Source: Siansivirga zeaxanthinifaciens CC-SAMT-1 | Lineage (GTDB): Bacteria > Bacteroidota > Bacteroidia > Flavobacteriales > Flavobacteriaceae | Assembly (NCBI RefSeq): GCF_000941055.1 | Contig: NZ_CP007202.1 | Coordinates: 3,022,437-3,086,436, forward strand | Direction of reading: 5' to 3' | Length of the DNA stretch: 64,000 bases | Shown here: positions 45,341 through 57,332 of the stretch, piece by piece | How the letters are laid out: each line of letters begins with the position of its first letter | Numbering within the stretch: the first letter of the stretch is position 1 | The notes under the pieces: model-generated | Told to the model about the DNA's origin: nothing | Databases searched by the model: none | What the model saw: the letters and a program-made list of their open reading frames with translations, nothing else | Position numbers and translations under genes: made by a program

Positions 45341-46486
45341 CTATTTTACTACAAGCTTAGAGGTATAAATTTTATCGAACTCATCTTTTACTGTTATAAT
45401 ATACATACCCGATTTAAATGTATTGGCCTTACGAATCTCTAGCGTCGGGTTTACTGTAGTGGTTTTATAAACCGTTTTACCCAAAAAGTCTGTGATGGTT
45501 ACTTTAGCCCTTTGTATATTTTCTAAGTTAATCGTAAAGCTATCGCTAACGGGGTTTGGAAATACCATAATAGATTTTTTTGCTACTTGCTTATCTAAAA
45601 CTATTGCGTTGCCTGCACTTAACGTGCGTGATGCAGGTATGGTACTATTTAGAGACTGCACTGCACTTGCCCCGTCATTAAACGCTTTTAAATTATGAAT
45701 ACGTGAGGTTATATCGAATGGACACTTACCTCCTCCATAAATACCAAATTTTGCATACACAGATCTTTCATCAATACCTATGTTATCATTATAATCTGGG
45801 TCATCATCTGTTTTACACTCTACTATTTCACTAGGAGCGCCGTTAGGATTATTAAGAGTTTGTTTTGTTCCATTAATCCATACTTCAACAGTCCCTGCGT
45901 TAGTACCTGTTTCTTCGATTCCTTTTTTAATACCTAACACAATATCTACCCATGTATCTTTTGCAGTAAGTATCTCCTTTAATATAAATTTTCTATTATC
46001 TGAGGAACAACCAGGACCTAGCTTCCAATTTCTTATATTCCCTGTATTGCTGTTTTTACAAGGTTTGAAGTATTGGAATAAGATTTTTCCATTTTCATAA
46101 GCTATCGTAATTGGGTGGTTTTGGCTACCACCATCAGGTTCAGAAGTCTTAAATTGAAAAATAGCAAATCTATCGTTGAAACTATCATCATGACTAATCA
46201 TAACTCTCCAAGCATAGTAGATGGTTTGACCTGAAAAGTGTTCTTCTCTAGGTCTTGAAAACTCATTACGTTTTACCTTTGCAGGACATGTCTGTCTCCA
46301 TACTTTACCACTCACGCCATTTACATTCTCTTGAAAAATTTGGGGATTATTGGAAGTTGTTTCACAATCTTCAAAATTAATGCTTTGGAAATGTGTTAAA
46401 GGCCCACCTACATTCGCGTCTGCATGCCAAATTTGAGCACATACAGCTAAAGGGAAACCTAATAAGAGGACTAATAGTTTTTTCAT
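45341..46486 (-). CDS. Secreted concanavalin-like polysaccharide lyase (PL28/heparin-lyase-I-like) with T9SS tail
   Basis: The 381-residue protein has a signal peptide ending in AVCAQ, a beta jelly-roll domain (about 20-265; KVWRQTCPAKVKRNEFSRPRE, YYAWRVMISHDDSFNDRFAIFQFKT, VDIVLGIKKGIEE, VEVWINGTKQTLNNPNGA) and a T9SS tail (MVFPNPVSDSFTI ... YTSKLVVK). The order of motifs parallels the PL28-type protein at 55761 (KRAEFAR, YYYGWRWRF, AVFQWKT, LEFWFNGVQQTLSN), so they share a fold and probably the lyase chemistry, but sequence identity is low. It lacks a RICIN-like module. No direct-repeat operator was found in the 500 bp upstream, unlike most secreted enzymes here. Confidence 0.7.
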   Translation of the reverse strand: MKKLLVLLLGFPLAVCAQIWHADANVGGPLTHFQSINFEDCETTSNNPQIFQENVNGVSGKVWRQTCPAKVKRNEFSRPREEHFSGQTIYYAWRVMISHDDSFNDRFAIFQFKTSEPDGGSQNHPITIAYENGKILFQYFKPCKNSNTGNIRNWKLGPGCSSDNRKFILKEILTAKDTWVDIVLGIKKGIEETGTNAGTVEVWINGTKQTLNNPNGAPSEIVECKTDDDPDYNDNIGIDERSVYAKFGIYGGGKCPFDITSRIHNLKAFNDGASAVQSLNSTIPASRTLSAGNAIVLDKQVAKKSIMVFPNPVSDSFTINLENIQRAKVTITDFLGKTVYKTTTVNPTLEIRKANTFKSGMYIITVKDEFDKIYTSKLVVK

Positions 46487-46990: not shown

Positions 46991-47303
46991 TCAGTTCAAT
47001 TTGTGTAAATAAACAGCAATATCCGTATCAAATTGTGTAAAATATTTGGCGTAGGCACTTGGTGTCTTGCCAAACTTAGCTGTATTCTGCATCTGTTGGT
47101 GTGGTTACAAATGGTGGATTATTGGGATCATCAACACAATCATCATCACTTGGGTTGCTATTGCCATTAGGGTCGAGGCGTCTAAAATTATCATTTACGG
47201 ATAAATTAGGGTCTCCGCACCATAATACTTGTGCACTAAGCGCATTTGATAGGAATATAACAATTAAATACAACAAATAGGTTTTAATGTTTTTAGTTTT
47301 CAT
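46991..47303 (-). pseudogene. Chimeric remnant: PL28 lyase start fused to HTCS regulator end
   Basis: From the ATG at 47303 a signal peptide ending in ALSAQ leads into VLWCGDPNLSVNDNFRRLDP and continues to TTPTDAEYS, then stops at 47076. About 126 bp (47108-47233) are nearly identical to the start of the PL28 gene near 57134-57259, with only about three differences seen. Immediately after, in another frame from about 47080, comes AKFGKTPSAYAKYFTQF, ending at the TGA at 46991; it matches the last residues of the HTCS at 48470 (AKFGKTPSEYAQSF). The join is near 47080 in a short AGTTTGG-like stretch common to both genes. A copy of the PL28-hydrolase-HTCS segment seems to have been duplicated and then deleted internally. 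The C-terminal tail after the match differs from the resident HTCS. Confidence 0.85.
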
Positions 47304-47413
47304 AGCTGTTTTTTTTAATCCATTATTGCACGTTACAAGAAGATATTCATATGGAATTATTAAACGTTCCAAAGAGCATATTAAACATCAATTTTTTAGC
47401 CCCACTTCGATTC

Positions 47414-47444
47414 AAAAAAGGCTCGGTTTTAAACCAAGCCTTTT
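47414..47444 (-). terminator. Rho-independent terminator of the small lectin gene
   Basis: Arms AAAAGGCT (47416-47423) and AGCCTTTT (47437-47444), joined by an inner GGTTT/AAACC stem with one mismatch, form a stable hairpin with T-rich sequence after it on the minus strand, 64 bp after the stop at 47509. Confidence 0.82.
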
Positions 47445-47508
47445 CATCATTATTAATTCGAGTTGTGCTAATTGCTTAAGCAAAAACTACCCTCAGTACT
47501 TTAGTATT

Positions 47509-48285
47509 TTATCTCTTCACAACTTTTCTTGTTGCAAATGTATTTGTTCCAATAAATTTAACGACATAAACACCGCTTGATAAGGCTGTTACATCTAAAG
47601 ACAAAGATGATGCACCACTTGTTAATTTTTGTATTAAAGACTTTCCTACCAAGTTAAATACTTCAACTTTATTAATGTTGGATGATAACCCTTTAATTTG
47701 GATAAAATCGTTTATTGGATTAGAAATAAATACAGAACTTAAATTAAAGTCATCATTACTTAACACTGCAGCTTCTATTATCCAGCTTTGTCTGTTGTCG
47801 TTTGTATCAAGTGGAACAGCAGTGATAGTACCTACATTAGCACCATTTATAGTTTGATTAGTTTGATTTTCGCGAACGTAAAGGTCATTAAGATGGAATC
47901 GATATTCAGAACCGCTAACATTAACAAAAATTGCTCTTCTTTCTGCGTCAGGACTAGCACCCGAAACTTGTCCAATAGAACCCGTATTAGCACCCGATAT
48001 AAAAATTTTCATTAAACCTCTTGATCCTAATACTTCGAACGTACCATTAGCATCTAAAGCTGTAAGATTAAATGTAGTCTTAGCCCCATTTAAACTTGCA
48101 CTAGTTTCATACCGCCAACCTTCAGCAGTTCCTGTCTCCGCTGCCAAGTCAGCGCCTCCAGTAGAGAGGTAGCCACCAGTTTCCTTATTTCTTATGGTGT
48201 AAAGACCATCTGCAAGCTGAGCTTGTATCTGAAAAACAGCTGCAAAAAGAATTAATAGTGTACATTTAAAAGTAAAATTTTTCAT
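47509..48285 (-). CDS. Small secreted lectin-like protein with T9SS tail
   Basis: The 258-residue protein has a signal peptide ending in FQIQAQ, a single RICIN-like module (about 24-170; LADGLYTIRNKETGGYLSTGG, EYRFHLNDLYVRE, RQSWIIEAA) and a T9SS sorting domain (SSVFISNPINDFIQIKGL ... FATRKVVKR). There is no catalytic domain. It is the intact counterpart of the split gene at 44245. Because it is exported, it probably binds the polymer or its fragments outside the cell or on its surface (inference). It lies 184 bp after the HTCS stop; no clear operator copy is upstream, so it may be read through from the HTCS transcript. Confidence 0.75.
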   Translation of the reverse strand: MKNFTFKCTLLILFAAVFQIQAQLADGLYTIRNKETGGYLSTGGADLAAETGTAEGWRYETSASLNGAKTTFNLTALDANGTFEVLGSRGLMKIFISGANTGSIGQVSGASPDAERRAIFVNVSGSEYRFHLNDLYVRENQTNQTINGANVGTITAVPLDTNDNRQSWIIEAAVLSNDDFNLSSVFISNPINDFIQIKGLSSNINKVEVFNLVGKSLIQKLTSGASSLSLDVTALSSGVYVVKFIGTNTFATRKVVKR

Positions 48286-48469: not shown

Positions 48470-51400
48470 TTAATTCTCTAAAAAGGACTGCGCATACTCA
48501 CTTGGCGTTTTACCAAACTTAGCTTTAAAACTTTTGCTGAAGTATTTTTGGTCTTTAAAACCTACTTTAGCACAAACTTGGTTAATGTTGGCTTTACCCT
48601 TTTCTAAAAGTTGGGCTGCACGGATAAGCCTTATATGTTGTATAAATTGTTTAGGGGTATAATCTGCCCAAGCTTTAAATTTGGTAAATAATACAGATTT
48701 GCTAACCCCTAATGCTTCGCAAAAGAAGGGGATATCAAAATTGTAATCACTTATGTTTTGCTCAATGATATCTAGTGCCTTATTGTACAAAGTTTCATCT
48801 AAAGACGACATTTGTATATCTTCTACCTTAAACACATCATGTGTATTTAGATTAGATTTAATGTTTTGAATGGATTTTAAACTATTATTAATACGCAACT
48901 TTAATTCTTGAACGTTAAAAGGCTTGCTAATATAATCATCGGCACCACTTTCTAAACCCTCTATTTTATGTGTTATATCTGATTTTGCAGTTAATAATAT
49001 AACCGGAATATGGCTGGTGCGAATATCTTCCTTAATTAATTTACAAAACTCTAAACCTGTAGTTATTGGCATGACTACATCGCTTACAATTAAATCTATA
49101 GGTTCTTTAATGGCCATTTTAAAGGCTATCTTACCGTTTTCAGCCTCAAATACGTTATAGTCATCAATCAAAATATTATGCATAAACATTCTGAGTTCCT
49201 CATTATCTTCTACCAATAGAATTGACATTTTTTTATCGGAACGAATTTTTGAAGAAAAGTTTCCTTCAAAAGGGACATCTGTGCTTTCTAACTGATTTTG
49301 ATAAAAATCAATTTCTTCTTTAATATGTTTAGCCTCAGTAATTTCATGGGGTTTGAAATGTGATGCCCCTTTAAATAATTCAACTTTAAAAATCGAACCC
49401 TTTCCTTCAGTATTTGACGCTACGCTAATTTTACCTTTATGTAACTCTACTATATTTTTTACAATGGCCAAACCTATTCCTGTCCCTTTTTTAAGGGGCC
49501 TATCGGCAGCATTATTATCAACTAACTCAAAAAAGCGGTCAAATATTTTTTCCCTATACGCTTCAGGAATACCAATACCATCATCTTCAACCAGAAGCAA
49601 TACCACATCTCCTTCCTCCTTTATTTTAACGGTTATTTGACCTTGACTACCTGTATACTTAAAAGCATTAGAAATTAAATTAAAGAACACTTGTACTAAC
49701 TTATTTTCATCTATGTAAAGCCGTATTTCATTTGAAGGAGTTTCAAAATTGTATTGATAGCCTTCACTAATAGCATAATCGGAAAAAGATTCGAAAACCT
49801 TCTTTAAGACATCTACTATATTATGCTCTGCTACTTGCAATGTCATTTGATTGCTTTCATATTTTCTAAAATCCATTAACCTATTGATAAGTTGATACAG
49901 ATGATTACTATTTCTTTTAATAACCTGAAGTTTTTTATATATACTGCTACTCCCCTGATAGTTATCTAAAATTTGTTGTAATGGCCCTAAGATTAACGTT
50001 AAAGGTGTTCTAAACTCGTGAGATATATTGGTAAAAAACTCAAGTTTAGCTTGGTTTATCTTTTTTATTTGTTCTGCTTCTAAATGCTCTAATTCTAATT
50101 CGTGTTTTAATTTGGTTCGAGATTTTGAAATACTATATAAGTAATAAATTATCGAAATAACTATTAAAATATATATAGCATATGCCCACCAAGTAAACCA
50201 AGGCGCAGGCCTAACAGAAATATTTAATGTTGTTGGTGTTTCATTTATAACACCATCGCTATTAACACCTTTAACTTCAAAAACATAGTCTCCCGGCTTT
50301 TGTATGGTATAAGATGCTTCATTATTAGGTGTTTCATTCCAATCGGTTTCTAAACCTTTAAGACGATATTTGTAAGTATTACTTTTAGAATTTATATAAC
50401 TTGGTATGGAAAATGAAATACTAAAATTACTTTGATCGTGCAAAAGCTCGACCTCTTGTGTGAAATTAATAGCTTTTGTGAGCACTTTATGGGAATCGTT
50501 TACTGAAACTGACTGGTTTTCAATTTTGAAATCTGTAAGGATAACTTGCGGTGCGTATTGGTTTTTTACAATTTTATGTTCATTAAATACCGTTACGCCT
50601 GAAGGACCACCAAAGTAATATGTAGAACCTAAACGTAGAGCAGCATCTCTATTAAACTCATTACTTGGCAAGCCTTCCTTTTGGGTAAAATGCGTTTCTA
50701 TGCTATTTTTTTTAAAATTATATTTTATTATACCTTGTGTATAGGTGCTCATCCAAAAACTGTTTTCATCAGCCCCTACAATGCTTCGTATGCCATCAAT
50801 TTTTTCGCCACCAACTTTTAAATCTATAAGTTCAAACTGGTTGTTTGCAAATTTAAATAAGCCATCTTCCAAAGTACCAATCCACAGGTTCTTATTACTA
50901 TCCTCATAAATGGTATTTATTTCAAACTTGAAGCTAGAATCATTACTATAAACAAAATTTTTTACCTCATTATTGGAGGTAATACAGTTTAAACCGCGGA
51001 GTGTTCCTAGCCAAATCTTTTTATCTCCATCTATAAATATGGTCTTGATATTACTATTGGTTAGACGAATAGGTTCTGTTTTGGAATTGAAAAGCTTAAA
51101 TGTCTTATCTTTAAAATTAAACTTAATTAAGCCACTACCATTCGTACCTATCAACATGGTATCATGAGAGTACTGAACAAGTTCTAATACCCCTAAATTT
51201 TTGAGCAATCTTGTTAATTCTTCTGGCAAAACCGCCTTATTAAATTGCTTGCTTTTAAGATTGTAGACAAATAAGCCTTTATCGAAGGTTCCTATCCATA
51301 GATTGTCATCATTACTTACACATAAAGCTTTTATATTATCGCTTTTAAGGTTTGAGTGGTTTCTGGAAGTTATATGGCTTATAGAATTAGTATCTTGATT

Positions 51401-52516
51401 TAGCACCGATATACCGCCACCTTCTGTACCAAATAAAAGCAAGTTTTTATAATTCACAATCGAACTTACAACCCTAAAACTTAAACCCTTTTCATAGGAA
51501 TTCTTTGTTATATTAACAAAGTTATTATTAAATCTATTATAAATATTTAAGCCTCCATAGTAGGTGCCCACCCAAATGGTTCCAATATTATCTTTAAATA
51601 CTGTTTTTATAAAATTATCATTTAAAGATTTGTTATTGTTCCCATCATGATATAGCGCATTTATATTTCTATCCTCATCAACAATATGAAGCCCGTTAAA
51701 AGTAGCAACCCATAAAAGACCGTTATCATCATAAATAAGTTTTCTGACGTTTTTACTTTTTTTATCTATTTCAGATTCTTTAAAGTAGGGTTGAATTTTC
51801 TTGTTATGAATATTATATTCTAGAACACTTTTGGTTTTTGTTGCGAGCAGAATATTACCATTTTTAGATTCTAGTAAATCGTTTATATTAAAACCTTCAG
51901 AGTGAGGAATTAATTCCATTTGATAGGCACTTCCTTTCTTAAAAAACTGATACAATCCTTTATTCGTACCAATATATATAGCTCCATCTTTTGTTTCGAC
52001 AATGCATGAAGGTAATTGTAAGTTTGATATTCTAAAAAAATTATCTTTTGAAGCATCATAGATTGAAACCCCACCAAAATGACACACCCATATTTCTTGA
52101 TTAGATAGTTGCCTAATGGCTATAATCATATTATTACCTAATACAGATTGATTATTATTTAAAAAATAGGATTTAAAAATATTCGTTTTTGGATCAAATT
52201 TATTTAAACCGAAAGCCGTACCAACCCATATAAAACCAGAGCTATCTTGCTCTATGCACTCAATACCATTGTTACTAATTGAAGTAGGGTTATCCTTTTC
52301 GTGACGGAACACCGTAAACTCAGTACCATCGTACTTGTTCAACCCGTCTTTTGTACCAATCCAAATCTGACCCAAATTATCTTGATGAACAGCCATAATG
52401 GAGTTTTGCGATAGCCCATCTGAATTGGTAATATGGTTAAAATTATAATTTGATTTTTGAGCAAAACTGGGTATTACTAAGAAAAGAAATAATAAAATGT
52501 GGTATGTTTTTAACAT
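48470..52516 (-). CDS. Hybrid two-component system regulator (HTCS)
   Basis: The 1348-residue protein joins sensor kinase and response regulator. Order: signal peptide, a periplasmic sensor of two beta propellers made of repeated G-x-IWIGT strands (about 25-690; GQIWIGTKDGLNKYD, GLLWVATFNGL, GTIWVGTYYGGL), a Y_Y_Y domain (about 700-765), one transmembrane helix (about 775-797), a histidine kinase with His833 in ISHEFRTPLTL, an ATPase domain (DDGIGIPEAYREKIFDRFF; GTGIGLAIVKNIVELH), a receiver domain with Asp1146 in LIVSDVVMP, and a C-terminal AraC-type DNA-binding domain ending in KAKFGKTPSEYAQSFLEN. In this family an oligosaccharide binds the sensor and the protein activates its PUL. It lies 32 bp after the hydrolase at 52549, behind operator copy 10, so it may drive its own expression. 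It is the best candidate to bind the TCCTG repeats. Confidence 0.96.
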   Translation of the reverse strand: MLKTYHILLFLFLVIPSFAQKSNYNFNHITNSDGLSQNSIMAVHQDNLGQIWIGTKDGLNKYDGTEFTVFRHEKDNPTSISNNGIECIEQDSSGFIWVGTAFGLNKFDPKTNIFKSYFLNNNQSVLGNNMIIAIRQLSNQEIWVCHFGGVSIYDASKDNFFRISNLQLPSCIVETKDGAIYIGTNKGLYQFFKKGSAYQMELIPHSEGFNINDLLESKNGNILLATKTKSVLEYNIHNKKIQPYFKESEIDKKSKNVRKLIYDDNGLLWVATFNGLHIVDEDRNINALYHDGNNNKSLNDNFIKTVFKDNIGTIWVGTYYGGLNIYNRFNNNFVNITKNSYEKGLSFRVVSSIVNYKNLLLFGTEGGGISVLNQDTNSISHITSRNHSNLKSDNIKALCVSNDDNLWIGTFDKGLFVYNLKSKQFNKAVLPEELTRLLKNLGVLELVQYSHDTMLIGTNGSGLIKFNFKDKTFKLFNSKTEPIRLTNSNIKTIFIDGDKKIWLGTLRGLNCITSNNEVKNFVYSNDSSFKFEINTIYEDSNKNLWIGTLEDGLFKFANNQFELIDLKVGGEKIDGIRSIVGADENSFWMSTYTQGIIKYNFKKNSIETHFTQKEGLPSNEFNRDAALRLGSTYYFGGPSGVTVFNEHKIVKNQYAPQVILTDFKIENQSVSVNDSHKVLTKAINFTQEVELLHDQSNFSISFSIPSYINSKSNTYKYRLKGLETDWNETPNNEASYTIQKPGDYVFEVKGVNSDGVINETPTTLNISVRPAPWFTWWAYAIYILIVISIIYYLYSISKSRTKLKHELELEHLEAEQIKKINQAKLEFFTNISHEFRTPLTLILGPLQQILDNYQGSSSIYKKLQVIKRNSNHLYQLINRLMDFRKYESNQMTLQVAEHNIVDVLKKVFESFSDYAISEGYQYNFETPSNEIRLYIDENKLVQVFFNLISNAFKYTGSQGQITVKIKEEGDVVLLLVEDDGIGIPEAYREKIFDRFFELVDNNAADRPLKKGTGIGLAIVKNIVELHKGKISVASNTEGKGSIFKVELFKGASHFKPHEITEAKHIKEEIDFYQNQLESTDVPFEGNFSSKIRSDKKMSILLVEDNEELRMFMHNILIDDYNVFEAENGKIAFKMAIKEPIDLIVSDVVMPITTGLEFCKLIKEDIRTSHIPVILLTAKSDITHKIEGLESGADDYISKPFNVQELKLRINNSLKSIQNIKSNLNTHDVFKVEDIQMSSLDETLYNKALDIIEQNISDYNFDIPFFCEALGVSKSVLFTKFKAWADYTPKQFIQHIRLIRAAQLLEKGKANINQVCAKVGFKDQKYFSKSFKAKFGKTPSEYAQSFLEN

Positions 52517-52548: not shown

Positions 52549-55512
52549 CTACCTGTATAATATCTTTTTTATTACATTACCCTCAGTTTTTAACAAATAA
52601 ATACCTTTTGAAGCATTAGAAATATCAACCAAATCCCCGTTACCTTCGGCGATTTTAGTTCCTAGTATAGAATACACTTTCCATTTACTTGGTATGCTTA
52701 GGTTAAACCTTCCATCTTTACTCGGCACAGGGTATACTCTTAAATTAATGGCCGTGTTATCAAATTCATTAATACTTAAACTTCCCAATCTATTTAGCGT
52801 AACATAATCATACGTTGGACCCGCTCCTCCTGAAGGAATTCTTAATTCCAATACTGCCAAACCTGCATCTAAATCAAATTCATCAGAGGTATAGTCTTGA
52901 AAAACGGAGCCCTCTGTAATTATTCTTATCCCGCTTGTAGTCGAGCCATTTGGCGCACTAAACAACGGCGTTGAAGTAGATAAATTTAAAGGTAGTATAT
53001 TAGCAGCAAATGGTTTAGAAGTATTAGAAAAGGTCTTGTAATTAACAAGCATTTGGTACCTGCCAGCTTCCGTTACATTTATCGTATACCTCAAATATTC
53101 ATTACCACTTAAAGAGCCAACAACAAAACCTGATCCTCCAACTTCAATATCTACGTCCTCTCCAGGGGCTGTTCTGTAAGCACCACCTGAATTACCTGGT
53201 GAAGAATCAGAAAAAGCTAGTCCTTGTCCTCCTAAATCATAATCTTCGACCTGAATAGTACCAGGAATCGTATGCGGAACTCCTCCGAAAGGCTGTATTG
53301 TTAAGGCCTGAACATTAACCGTTATGGATGTTTCAGAAGTTTGAAATTTGTTGTCTGTGAGCACTAATTTTAAGGTATAAACACCTACAGCCATATTTTC
53401 CAATAACGTATCTGATTGCCCATCATATCCCCAAGTAAACGGTGCTGCGGTAATAGAACGCACCAATACATCGTCTATATAAAGTGCCATACTTGTTATT
53501 TCTGATGGTGATAAGGAGGTTGAAGCTTCAACTTCTATATCAAAGCCTGGTGCTAAAACATAACCATCGGCGGGTGCTACAAAGGTTGGTGCTGGAGGCG
53601 GCGCTATATAAACAACGTTAATTTTATCTAAATTAAATCCAGCGTTTTGAACATTAACTTTAAGCACATGTAAACCCTGTGTTAATGCTACATTTTGTTT
53701 TGTACTTGTTTGAAAATCGGTGGCACTTGAGGTTTGAGCTAAAGCATGATTATCAAACAATACAACATCATCCATCTCTACACTAATTAATGCTCCTGTG
53801 GATGCAGCGGCATATAAAAAGTCAAAATTATAGAGACCATCTTGTAATACATTTACATCGTATTTTAGCCATTCACCATTTTGGGTGTCGCCAACATAAA
53901 TAACGCCATTGTCTTGTCCTACATCAACCCCATCAGTATAGGCAGTTGCATTAAGGGTGTTTGTAGGCGTAGTATCTGAATATCCAACACCTTCACCACC
54001 GGCTCTATAGGCTTCTGCTTCTATAGTTCCTTGAACTAATTTTATTGAAGAATCCAATACAATGTTTGAAATTTTACTAATAGATAATGGGGGTAGCGTA
54101 ATAGCTCCTGTTCCTTGTTTAATTAAAGTTAATGGGTCGGTATAGTAATCAATGGGGGCTACAACACCTACATTATCAAACACCAAAGCTTCGTGTTTAA
54201 ACGAACCAGCGTATACCAAATTGTCAAATTTTAAAGTAAATTCAACAGGCTTATCTGTAAGGTTGATGGCAACCACGCTTGTATTACCATTTTTGGTTAC
54301 GGCTCTCGCATTTACTGCTGTAACTGAGCCTCTGGTAGTAGTCAACATAGTCGATGAAGTTACGGTACCGTTTAACAAAGTCGCATCCCTTAAAACATCT
54401 TGAAGGATTTCATAACTCATCAAGTACCCTCTTTTTTGTAGCGGATATACAGGTTCTCTGTTGGATCCAACAACAACCATAGCATTTAAAACCCTATTAA
54501 AGCTAAACCAGTTTGCTCTATCATAAATATGTTGGTTTTCTGCCATAAATAAATAAGCATCTGCCATTCCTAAACAAGCAGCGCCGTGCACATCTGAACC
54601 GGCGGACACACCCCATTCTGTTAACCAAATGGGTTTATTTTGATTATCAGTATCTCGAACCCAATTGACATCTTCTGCTAATTCTAATTTAGCTGTTAAA
54701 AGCGACTGATATGCTGTATTACTTTCCCCGGGTATATCAGGGTCGGCACCTAAGTATTTATGAACTGTAATGGCATCATAATAACTCCCATCGCCTCTTA
54801 TTGTAGCATTATAGGCTGCTTGACTTCGTCTCCACCCAAAAGGCACAGACACTCTTATATTTGGATATGCCGCTTTTAAAGCAGCCGAAACTGCCGAAGC
54901 CTCCGCTAAATATTTTTGTGGGGTATCTGTTCTTAGTGCTCTTTGATTAACCCAAAAATGTTCGTTTCCTAATTCTATATCTTTTACCTCAAGACCTAAG
55001 CCCATGTCTTTTTGTGCTCTGGCTACACTACTTGGCCCATCATCAAAATTGATAGAATAGGTCCACATCATATCATAACCTACACCGCCATTTGCAGCTT
55101 TTTTTTCAGTGTTTAGTTGGGCAATACCATTAATATGTCCTTTTAAACAACACGCATAAGTTGCCAAAGTCGATTCATGTACACCATTGTCATAGCTGTC
55201 ATTTTGGTAACCATCGGTTTGCCATTGATAAAAATTGGCGAAAACCCCATGCGGGAAGCGAATGGTTACAGGATCTACTAATTTGATAAAGTCTTTTTGT
55301 AATTGGGTATTAAAACCCTCAATATTATAACCTAATAACTTATTGTTAAAAACTTCGGTATTTGTTGTCTCAACATTCAATGAAGCTGTAATAGTTCCAG
55401 GTAAAGTAAAGGGATAACTCTGTGCTTCTGCTTTTAAATAGAAGCAGATTACACATGCAATAAAGCAAAGATATTTAAAATATTGCCTATTTGATGTAGC
55501 ATTTTTGTTCAT
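52549..55512 (-). CDS. Large secreted clan GH-A glycoside hydrolase with two CBM6-like domains and T9SS tail
   Basis: The protein is 987 residues. After a signal peptide ending in LKAEAQ it has a TIM-barrel hydrolase (about 30-440) with candidate acid/base Glu184 (KDIELGNEHFW) and nucleophile Glu299 (IWLTEWGVSAG), the Asn-Glu plus second Glu pattern of clan GH-A. A CBM6-like module follows (about 490-640; GTIEAEAYRAGGEGVGYSD), then an Ig-like domain, a second CBM6-like module (about 745-905; GTIQVEDYDLGGQGLAFSD) and a T9SS sorting domain (LRVYPVPSKDGRF). The family could not be fixed: GH39, GH51, GH86 or a related uncharacterised group are all possible. Being secreted, it should act on the polymer or long fragments. 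It heads the unit that also encodes the HTCS. Confidence 0.72.
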   Translation of the reverse strand: MNKNATSNRQYFKYLCFIACVICFYLKAEAQSYPFTLPGTITASLNVETTNTEVFNNKLLGYNIEGFNTQLQKDFIKLVDPVTIRFPHGVFANFYQWQTDGYQNDSYDNGVHESTLATYACCLKGHINGIAQLNTEKKAANGGVGYDMMWTYSINFDDGPSSVARAQKDMGLGLEVKDIELGNEHFWVNQRALRTDTPQKYLAEASAVSAALKAAYPNIRVSVPFGWRRSQAAYNATIRGDGSYYDAITVHKYLGADPDIPGESNTAYQSLLTAKLELAEDVNWVRDTDNQNKPIWLTEWGVSAGSDVHGAACLGMADAYLFMAENQHIYDRANWFSFNRVLNAMVVVGSNREPVYPLQKRGYLMSYEILQDVLRDATLLNGTVTSSTMLTTTRGSVTAVNARAVTKNGNTSVVAINLTDKPVEFTLKFDNLVYAGSFKHEALVFDNVGVVAPIDYYTDPLTLIKQGTGAITLPPLSISKISNIVLDSSIKLVQGTIEAEAYRAGGEGVGYSDTTPTNTLNATAYTDGVDVGQDNGVIYVGDTQNGEWLKYDVNVLQDGLYNFDFLYAAASTGALISVEMDDVVLFDNHALAQTSSATDFQTSTKQNVALTQGLHVLKVNVQNAGFNLDKINVVYIAPPPAPTFVAPADGYVLAPGFDIEVEASTSLSPSEITSMALYIDDVLVRSITAAPFTWGYDGQSDTLLENMAVGVYTLKLVLTDNKFQTSETSITVNVQALTIQPFGGVPHTIPGTIQVEDYDLGGQGLAFSDSSPGNSGGAYRTAPGEDVDIEVGGSGFVVGSLSGNEYLRYTINVTEAGRYQMLVNYKTFSNTSKPFAANILPLNLSTSTPLFSAPNGSTTSGIRIITEGSVFQDYTSDEFDLDAGLAVLELRIPSGGAGPTYDYVTLNRLGSLSINEFDNTAINLRVYPVPSKDGRFNLSIPSKWKVYSILGTKIAEGNGDLVDISNASKGIYLLKTEGNVIKKILYR

Positions 55513-55760: not shown

Positions 55761-57332
55761 CTATTTTTTGATGATTTTTCTTGTATATATTGATACTTCC
55801 CCGTAGAATTTAACAAAGTATAAACCACTGATTAAGGTATTAGCGTCTATTCGTATAGATGATGCCCCTTTTACGTTTTTCAATACTATAGTTTTGCCAA
55901 CTATGTTAAACACTTCAATTTTATTGACTTTTTTTTCTAATCCATCAATTATAATTTCGTCATCTATTGGGTTAGAAATGAAAACTGAATTTCTATGAAA
56001 ACCTTCATTACTAAGTGCATTCGTATTTTCTAATAGCCATTTCGTGTTAGCTGTAGCTGAACTTGTGTAATTAACATCACCCGAATTATCATATGCATAC
56101 CTTCCTGTGGTTGTTTGTGGCGTATGGATATCATATGCGCCAGAACCGTTAGAAACAAATTCAAAAATTCTTGTATTGTTTGTATCTGTGGTGGGAGTTG
56201 CAGTTGTAGTAGGATACACATTAATCGATTCAAATCTTACTGCATCCCATCCCGTAAGTGTACATGAAATATTATAATAACCATTAGAACCAACAGATTT
56301 CACTTCAAAAATTTGTGAATTATTATTTGGCGAAATTTCATCGGCAGTAATAATATTTGAATTTGCAGTGTCTACAGTCCAATACTTCCCCGTTACACTG
56401 TGCTTAATTTTATATTTTCCTTCTAAACCATTGGTTGGATTTCCACCAATTGAACCACTAGGAAGTGCTTCAAGGTATGTTGAAGCAACACGCATGTCAT
56501 CAAAATCTGTTATCACCTCAAAATCACAGGCGTTTTCATTGTAAGAACCCCACTTTGGGTAAACTTCAACTCCATCAAATGTTTTATGATAGGCTCTTTT
56601 ATCAGAATCTGCCAAAACCACTTGATATTCATTAAAATTAAGATTTGAAAGTGTTTGCTGTACTCCATTAAACCAGAACTCTAAATAGCCTTCATATCTA
56701 TTATTAACCACATCAAAATTATCATCAACCTTGACTTTTATAACAAAAGTCACCCATTCATCTTCGGGAATTACATGTTGCCATAAGGTTGTTCTTCGCT
56801 GGGTTATAGACCCTGGCCTGTTCCAATTCGGTTCTGCTGGTCCGAAGGCATTTAAACTTAAAGTTGTACCATCGTAAGACATCGTATAAGGATAATTTTG
56901 TTTATTCGTGTTAATATCTCCACCATCAGTAGTTTTCCATTGAAACACAGCAATACCAGCATTTAAATTTGGTTCAGAATTAAATCTCCAACGCCAACCA
57001 TAATAATAAGTTCCGCCTTTTTGAGGGGTAAATGTATTTACGTCGCCCGTAGTTCTGGCAAATTCTGCTCTCTTTCTAGAAACAGGTTTAGTTATACGCC
57101 AAAATTTACCAAACTCAGAATCTATAGGTGTAGTGACAAATGGTGGATTATTGGGATCATCAACACAATCATCACCACTTGGGTTGCTATTGCCATTAGG
57201 GTCGAGGTGTCTAAAATTATCATTTACGGATAAATTAGGGTCTCCGTACCATAATACTTGTGCATTTAGCTCATAGCCAAAAAATAATAGCGATAAAATA
57301 AGCACGAATTTCTTAGCTATATTTATTCTCAT
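55761..57332 (-). CDS. Ulvan lyase, PL28-like, with RICIN-like module and T9SS tail
   Basis: The 523-residue protein has a signal peptide ending in ELNAQ. The catalytic jelly roll (about 25-295) begins VLWYGDPNLSVNDNFRHLDP and contains ISKPVSR-type basic residues (KPVSRKRAEFARTTGD), YYYGWRWRFNSEP, GIAVFQWKTTDGG and YLEFWFNGVQQTLSN, which I recall from the PL28 ulvan lyase of Nonlabens. PL28 enzymes cut rhamnose-uronate links by beta-elimination and leave unsaturated uronyl ends, the substrate of the GH105 next door. A RICIN-like module (about 305-435) and a T9SS tail (SVFISNPIDDEIIIDGL ... IYTRKIIKK) follow. It is the last gene of the five-gene operon, 21 bp after GH105. A nearly identical N-terminal fragment lies at 47076-47303. 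Confidence 0.8.
   Translation of the reverse strand: MRINIAKKFVLILSLLFFGYELNAQVLWYGDPNLSVNDNFRHLDPNGNSNPSGDDCVDDPNNPPFVTTPIDSEFGKFWRITKPVSRKRAEFARTTGDVNTFTPQKGGTYYYGWRWRFNSEPNLNAGIAVFQWKTTDGGDINTNKQNYPYTMSYDGTTLSLNAFGPAEPNWNRPGSITQRRTTLWQHVIPEDEWVTFVIKVKVDDNFDVVNNRYEGYLEFWFNGVQQTLSNLNFNEYQVVLADSDKRAYHKTFDGVEVYPKWGSYNENACDFEVITDFDDMRVASTYLEALPSGSIGGNPTNGLEGKYKIKHSVTGKYWTVDTANSNIITADEISPNNNSQIFEVKSVGSNGYYNISCTLTGWDAVRFESINVYPTTTATPTTDTNNTRIFEFVSNGSGAYDIHTPQTTTGRYAYDNSGDVNYTSSATANTKWLLENTNALSNEGFHRNSVFISNPIDDEIIIDGLEKKVNKIEVFNIVGKTIVLKNVKGASSIRIDANTLISGLYFVKFYGEVSIYTRKIIKK

Follow-up and report, generated by a model that had tools for sequence, protein, structure and literature searches.

In a window of 64,000 nucleotides from the genome of Siansivirga zeaxanthinifaciens CC-SAMT-1 (the whole stretch of DNA analysed, to which all positions refer), we found a genuine fusion scar at which the start of a polysaccharide lyase gene meets the end of an HTCS-type gene other than the resident one. 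DNA scars of this kind are known, and this one is a clear example and not a new system. Homology-facilitated illegitimate recombination, with an HTCS gene as its site, may well have made it, in our tentative estimate.

The genome consists of one contig of 3.30 Mb, in which this lyase is represented by one complete copy, the stump at the scar and partial or distant matches. It was compared with a sample of the family amounting to 397 genomes including its own, which is the sole member of its genus there. The genes of the locus lie on the (-) strand in the order GH88-family gene, intact lyase, 987-aa hydrolase, HTCS, 258-aa secreted protein, stump, HTCS tail and PF14099 lyase (Table 1). The resident HTCS combines Reg_prop, Y_Y_Y, HisKA, HATPase_c, response regulator and HTH_18 domains in one protein. 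The names GH43 and GH3, given below to neighbouring genes, are readings of their sequences, and the gene set suggests ulvan as the substrate of the locus.

Several features lie farther along the strand. The PF14099 lyase had no match at E≤1e-40 in the 396 other family genomes, with up to four candidates scored per genome. A T9SS-tailed gene (45099-44248) is in two pieces, the 294-aa relative from the uncultured Algibacter locus (L084) matching 45099-45025 and 44508-44248. Adjacent open reading frames in 36688-34313 resemble one split or composite gene, the first being like a 729-aa paralog and the second like the C-terminal part of a 1138-aa protein.

Table 1. Features of the lyase-HTCS locus, with positions in the window.
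Feature	Positions	Strand	Remark
GH88-family gene	58481-57354	(-)	
Intact lyase copy	55761-57332	(-)	starts 21 bp past the GH88-family gene
Putative hydrolase, 987 aa, CBM6/CBM35-like modules	52549-55512	(-)	
Resident HTCS regulator	48470-52516	(-)	starts 32 bp past the hydrolase gene
258-aa secreted protein, T9SS sorting tail	47509-48285	(-)	
Spacer, 205 bp, 258-aa gene to stump	47304-47508	(-)	
Second polysaccharide lyase gene, 5' stump, 74 codons	47082-47303	(-)	ORF ends with TAA at 47078-47076
13-nt similarity tract 3' of the join	47069-47081	(-)	lyase (Seonamhaeicola sediminis allele) versus HTCS side, 10/13
Other HTCS-type gene, last 29 codons and TGA	46991-47080	(-)	
PF14099 polysaccharide lyase, T9SS tail	45341-46486	(-)	504 bp past the HTCS tail

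The join between a lyase start and an HTCS end

The preliminary description had reported a lyase frame of 75 residues stopping at 47076 and running directly into the end of an HTCS-type protein. The frame was confirmed, with its ATG at 47303 on the (-) strand, and both sides of the fusion had been named correctly, but they are not in frame. The join lies at 47082|47081 (GAATAC|AGCTAAG), where 74 lyase codons are followed by AGC and a stop, so that the lyase frame closes one codon past it. Beyond the join another frame reads AKFGKTPSAYAKYFTQFDTDIAVYLHKLN and then a stop (47080-46991). As the HTCS residues are in this different frame, there is no fusion protein.

The tail matched AKFGKTPSEYA of the resident HTCS with a score of 58. 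When the 93 nt concerned were dinucleotide-shuffled 5,000 times and read in three frames on one strand, the maximum was 43 and none reached 58, so the HTCS match holds on alignment; when the entire gap of 594 nt was shuffled and read in six frames, a score of 58 was reached once in 1,000 shuffles (maximum 60). The tail resembles HTCS C-termini, with an AraC-type end, at a length too short for a domain call, and fits the compared HTCS ends poorly past about residue 13. A chance match would draw on the facts that only about 12 residues carry the signal and that one whole-gap shuffle equalled the score. Set against the 93-nt shuffles, and against a match that begins at the break and ends with a stop at the position of a gene end, chance is unlikely to the point of being barely credible. 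The tail differs from the resident HTCS, in agreement with its proposed origin from a divergent copy. When its 29 residues were searched in the 397 family genomes, its own place was recovered at E 9e-16 and the rest were weak (an HTCS paralog in the same genome, 0.018; G310, 0.053; G121, 0.07); with this query and few candidates per genome, the parent gene, which would be an HTCS ending AKFGKTPSAYAKYFTQ..., was not found in the 396 other genomes.

It had also been proposed that the join falls in AGTTTGG, a sequence shared by both genes. A short similarity is present there, but not this one: AGTTTGG occurs in the intact copy and in the lyase gene of Seonamhaeicola aphaedonensis, and the stump has an S. 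sediminis-like GAATAC instead of GAGTTT. From the break onward, GGCAAATTTTGGC in the S. sediminis allele and AGCTAAGTTTGGC on the HTCS side are alike at 10 of 13 positions. The tract is imperfect, its longest exact run being 6, and 10/13 was reached by 92 of 200,000 random registers between the S. sediminis-allele lyase and the resident HTCS gene, the length of 13 having been picked post hoc.

Sequence comparison revealed that the stump is itself composite. Its signal-peptide part (47303-47253) was identical to the S. aphaedonensis lyase at 51/51 bases and to the intact copy at only 26/51, and its N-terminus, MKTKNIKTYLLYLIVIFLSNAL, has the S. aphaedonensis form. Positions 47230-47107 matched the intact copy at 121/124 bases and S. 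aphaedonensis at 119/124, three sites (47199, 47175 and 47163) being common to the stump and the intact copy against S. aphaedonensis. The near-identity of about 126 bp to the intact gene described earlier therefore stands for this stretch and does not extend to the signal peptide. The last bases, 47106-47085, were closest to S. sediminis (19/22, against 15/22 each for S. aphaedonensis and the intact copy), and the 14 bases at which the stump departs from S. aphaedonensis all fall in 47252-47085. Because the stump is by turns S. aphaedonensis-, intact- and S. sediminis-like, the near-identity at 47230-47107 is a patch that was converted or has a common origin, within a differently derived gene.

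Four changes in 219 bases are private to the stump when it is compared with three relatives and the intact copy. Three of them, N23S, Y29C and G53D, lie at second codon positions and alter sites identical across the four other sequences compared; the fourth is at a third position (47106). That three of four are nonsynonymous would be in keeping with a dead gene, on few data. The stump retains an intact start codon, a beginning that resembles a signal peptide and the spacer ahead of it, as it would if the 75-residue frame encoded a working small secreted protein. The changes at constant sites make this reading highly improbable, as does the result that no comparable short open reading frame appeared among lyase matches at E≤1e-20 in the 396 other family genomes (up to three candidates scored in each).

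The lyase and its place in related loci

The label PL28, given to the lyase in the preliminary description, was without sequence support, for neither single-sequence nor profile searches matched it to the PL28 ulvan lyase NLR48 (PDB 6D2C) with E up to 10. A model of the full lyase had a mean pLDDT of 53 and its fold matches were set aside; the catalytic part alone was modelled at a mean pLDDT of 65. For that part the best fold match was the glucuronan lyase 2zzj (Z 15.4 over 205 residues, 3.3 Å), followed by heparin lyase I (heparinase I) at Z about 14 and PL7 lyases at about 13. NLR48 came behind glucuronan lyase and heparinase I with Z 11.7 and 8% identity. The locus resembles ulvan utilization loci with a PL28 lyase in its jelly-roll lyase fold and in the adjoining GH88-family gene and HTCS, and departs from them in that low identity and in the missing profile match. 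On the model, the enzyme is predicted to be a polysaccharide lyase that has the jelly-roll fold and no settled family. The available part of PMC11395424 tabulates a PL28 enzyme of 52 kDa from Tamlana fucoidanivorans CW2-9.

Five related loci were found. Four of these (S. aphaedonensis, L085; S. sediminis, L083; T. fucoidanivorans, L082; uncultured Algibacter, L084) have the order GH43-GH3-GH88-HTCS-secreted protein-lyase, with the counterpart of the 258-aa gene immediately before the complete lyase. Since this order puts the lyase after the HTCS and the secreted protein, the stump stands where these loci have the complete lyase. In the fifth locus, from Spongiivirga (L086), and likewise in genome G290, the lyase comes directly after GH88, and the place of the intact lyase therefore need not be new. 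Lyase matches at E≤1e-20 were obtained in 8 of the 397 family genomes, including its own (up to three candidates per genome); G137 matches only in the C-terminal part. When 60 genomes were searched, DNA matches outside the genome itself were only about 50 bases long or shorter, and lyase matches were confined to the C-terminal part.

A complete lyase-HTCS cassette, which the preliminary description had suggested looking for at this position in relatives, was not found: the complete lyase is followed in S. aphaedonensis, S. sediminis and T. fucoidanivorans by a protein of 576-583 aa, not an HTCS, that reads as a putative sulfatase, and in Algibacter by a 294-aa secreted protein, with no HTCS. 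In G293 an HTCS ending TPSAYAKKFKLQ stands immediately before a related lyase.

The 987-aa hydrolase was not seen in the lyase loci of the relatives. At E≤1e-60 it matched in 9 of the 397 genomes including its own (up to two candidates per genome); among the candidates scored, full-length versions were present only in its own genome and in G067, which has two copies, neither with an HTCS match within 19.9 kb. Seven genomes of one genus (g232) yielded one partial match. The middle part of the HTCS, searched in 268 genomes, matched in 19 including its own (up to seven candidates per genome), the best other match being 67% in G191, near the lyase of that genome.

Imported tracts and the origin of the scar

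The HTCS body, the secreted-protein gene and the lyase start appear to be a recent import, because the spacer was identical to that of S. aphaedonensis at 203/204 positions and the HTCS at about 98% (922/942 over 52408-51466 and 1823/1858 over 50327-48470), when rpoB identity to S. aphaedonensis was only 85.8% (3272/3812). The rpoB values for S. sediminis, T. fucoidanivorans and Algibacter were 85.3%, 86.3% and 87.4%, and identity to S. aphaedonensis was 83-86% for the neighbours read as GH43, GH3 and GH88. In the same spacer S. aphaedonensis and S. sediminis agree at 178/203 positions; as these two differ more from each other, the transfer is probably younger than their split.

The S. aphaedonensis-like tract has a sharp left edge at 52409, in codon 36 of the HTCS, with the frame kept. 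Codons 1-36 (52409-52516) are a different allele: S. aphaedonensis, S. sediminis and T. fucoidanivorans have a common HTCS N-terminus and preceding spacer, and both are missing here. Between the two stretches of about 98%, positions 51464-50328 are unlike S. aphaedonensis, making the sensor a mosaic, and this middle propeller part may be of third origin. The HTCS genes of S. aphaedonensis and S. sediminis are also mosaic relative to each other. Farther right, 48469-47253 was identical to S. aphaedonensis at 1141/1216 positions, with 150-bp windows of 82-99% within the 258-aa gene; within the stump the identity is complete only to 47253, fading about 170 bp ahead of the join. The imported segment would thus be flanked by HTCS ends of other origin, codons 1-36 on one side and the 29-codon tail on the other.

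Two further stretches of the window are close to S. aphaedonensis. Within the intact lyase, 57182-56583 matched at 597/600 positions, with flanking 150-bp windows of 71-86%. The upstream region and start of a 1154-aa gene (40551-39951) matched at 590/601 and are likely to be another import tract, the rest of that gene giving 150-bp windows of 64-89%.

One-sided integration is favoured because HTCS sequence of other origin at both outer ends encloses a segment like that of S. aphaedonensis, made up of the body of the HTCS, the gene for the secreted protein and the start of the lyase. The stump would be the lyase start of an HTCS-small secreted protein-lyase module, in the usual place of that module. 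The recipient site would have been an older HTCS gene of this bacterium, lying after the hydrolase gene, and the incoming DNA, from an S. aphaedonensis-like donor, would have carried the HTCS body, the secreted-protein gene and the lyase start. On the left, homologous exchange within the HTCS past codon 36 would have produced a chimeric regulator gene whose frame is open; on the right, an illegitimate join at the short similar tract would have attached the incoming lyase to the old HTCS at its last 29 codons. The remaining 3' end of the old HTCS and the rest of the incoming lyase would have been lost, and the stump would at present be in decay. We infer that a single displaced HTCS once had codons 1-36 at one end and the tail at the other, and that both edges stem from a single event; the PF14099 lyase may be the gene that formerly came after the lost HTCS. 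The supposed old arrangement, with an HTCS between the hydrolase and the PF14099 lyase, was not found in the sampled family genomes, with few candidates scored in each.

Counted for recombination were the GH88-HTCS-secreted protein-lyase order in four of five loci, the spacer, the chimeric HTCS, the tail from another HTCS allele at the lyase break, the join tract, the lyase next to GH88 in Spongiivirga and G290, the HTCS next to a related lyase in G293 and the discontinuous donor-like tracts at 57182-56583 and 40551-39951. Counted against it were the last 22 bases before the join, which are S. sediminis-like where S. aphaedonensis identity has already faded; the unevenness of the tract, in the 258-aa gene and at HTCS 51464-50328; a span of about 5.3 kb; the shortness of the tail and its poor fit past about residue 13; and searches, with few candidates scored per genome, that found neither the old arrangement nor the parent of the tail. 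In the available part of PMC3240628, products of this mechanism have one homologous and one illegitimate end, mostly with microhomology of 3-10 bp, and their insertions and deletions average about 1 kb. Taken alone, the differing codons 1-36 are a weak point, as such N-termini vary fast.

The join could also have arisen by deletion in place, the module having been followed by a second, unrelated HTCS ahead of the PF14099 lyase and the lyase start having been joined to the end of that HTCS. This is possible, though we would not expect it. The PF14099 lyase does lie on the same strand just past the tail, G293 has an HTCS directly ahead of a related lyase, and no coupling with the import is required; yet none of the four relatives has an HTCS after the lyase, and the differing codons 1-36 would be left unexplained. 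Because S. aphaedonensis identity fades ahead of the join, the scar could instead predate the import, or have arrived with the donor, S. aphaedonensis-like DNA having later overwritten the HTCS and the secreted-protein gene homologously and ended in the lyase start. Identity that is complete only to 47253 and S. sediminis-like bases at the join speak for this order of events, which we consider unlikely; four private changes would be little decay for an old scar.

The preliminary description had invoked an internal deletion in a duplicated lyase-hydrolase-HTCS segment, to which the near-identity of 47230-47107 to the intact copy lends itself. This was not borne out and is very unlikely. Both the spacer and the signal peptide have the form of the S. 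aphaedonensis module and not of the intact copy, and a local copy of the intact lyase would recreate neither; the module order in four of five loci contradicts such an origin too. A tandem duplicate of the intact lyase that then suffered a deletion was rejected for these reasons, and gene conversion or a common source accounts for the 124-bp identity and its three shared sites.

Known scars of this kind and their meaning

The favoured recombination resembles the homology-facilitated illegitimate recombination of S. pneumoniae, A. baylyi and P. stutzeri, and of E. coli conjugation, as presented in the available part of PMC3240628, in having one homologous edge and the other at a short similar tract, with foreign DNA gained and resident DNA presumably lost. 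It differs in being deduced from one genome, in its length of about 5.3 kb, in a tract with 10/13 matches and 6 exact, and in donor-like identity that fades about 170 bp ahead of the join. Displaced effector and Rhs locus genes have been explained similarly, in what is available of PMC5361080: at T6SS effector and Rhs genes, too, a new gene lies 5' of the orphaned 3' end of an old one, whereas in our locus a sugar-sensing regulator would have been displaced, and the 29 codons left behind are not a reusable module. Several discontinuous donor-like tracts near one another are also found in the mosaics made by natural transformation (PMC13344027, in part); ours is a natural case, between genera. 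Among the matches listed in a literature search, no title or opening of an abstract described HTCS displacement in ulvan loci.

It is conceivable, though doubtful, that one-sided homologous recombination between genera routinely displaces the sugar-sensing HTCS regulators of algal-polysaccharide loci, or swaps segments of them, and leaves orphan 3' ends and lyase stumps, and that the chimeric HTCS here, with its middle propeller part of third origin, has altered the sugar to which the locus responds. Near-identical patches between the two lyase copies should be taken as import or conversion and not as local duplication. The locus provides a base-resolution record of a recent exchange between genera in a polysaccharide locus, in which most of a regulator was replaced and a dead lyase stump was left. 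The event is ordinary in kind and unusually legible, and such scars are a means of reading how the regulators and enzymes of polysaccharide loci reassort.
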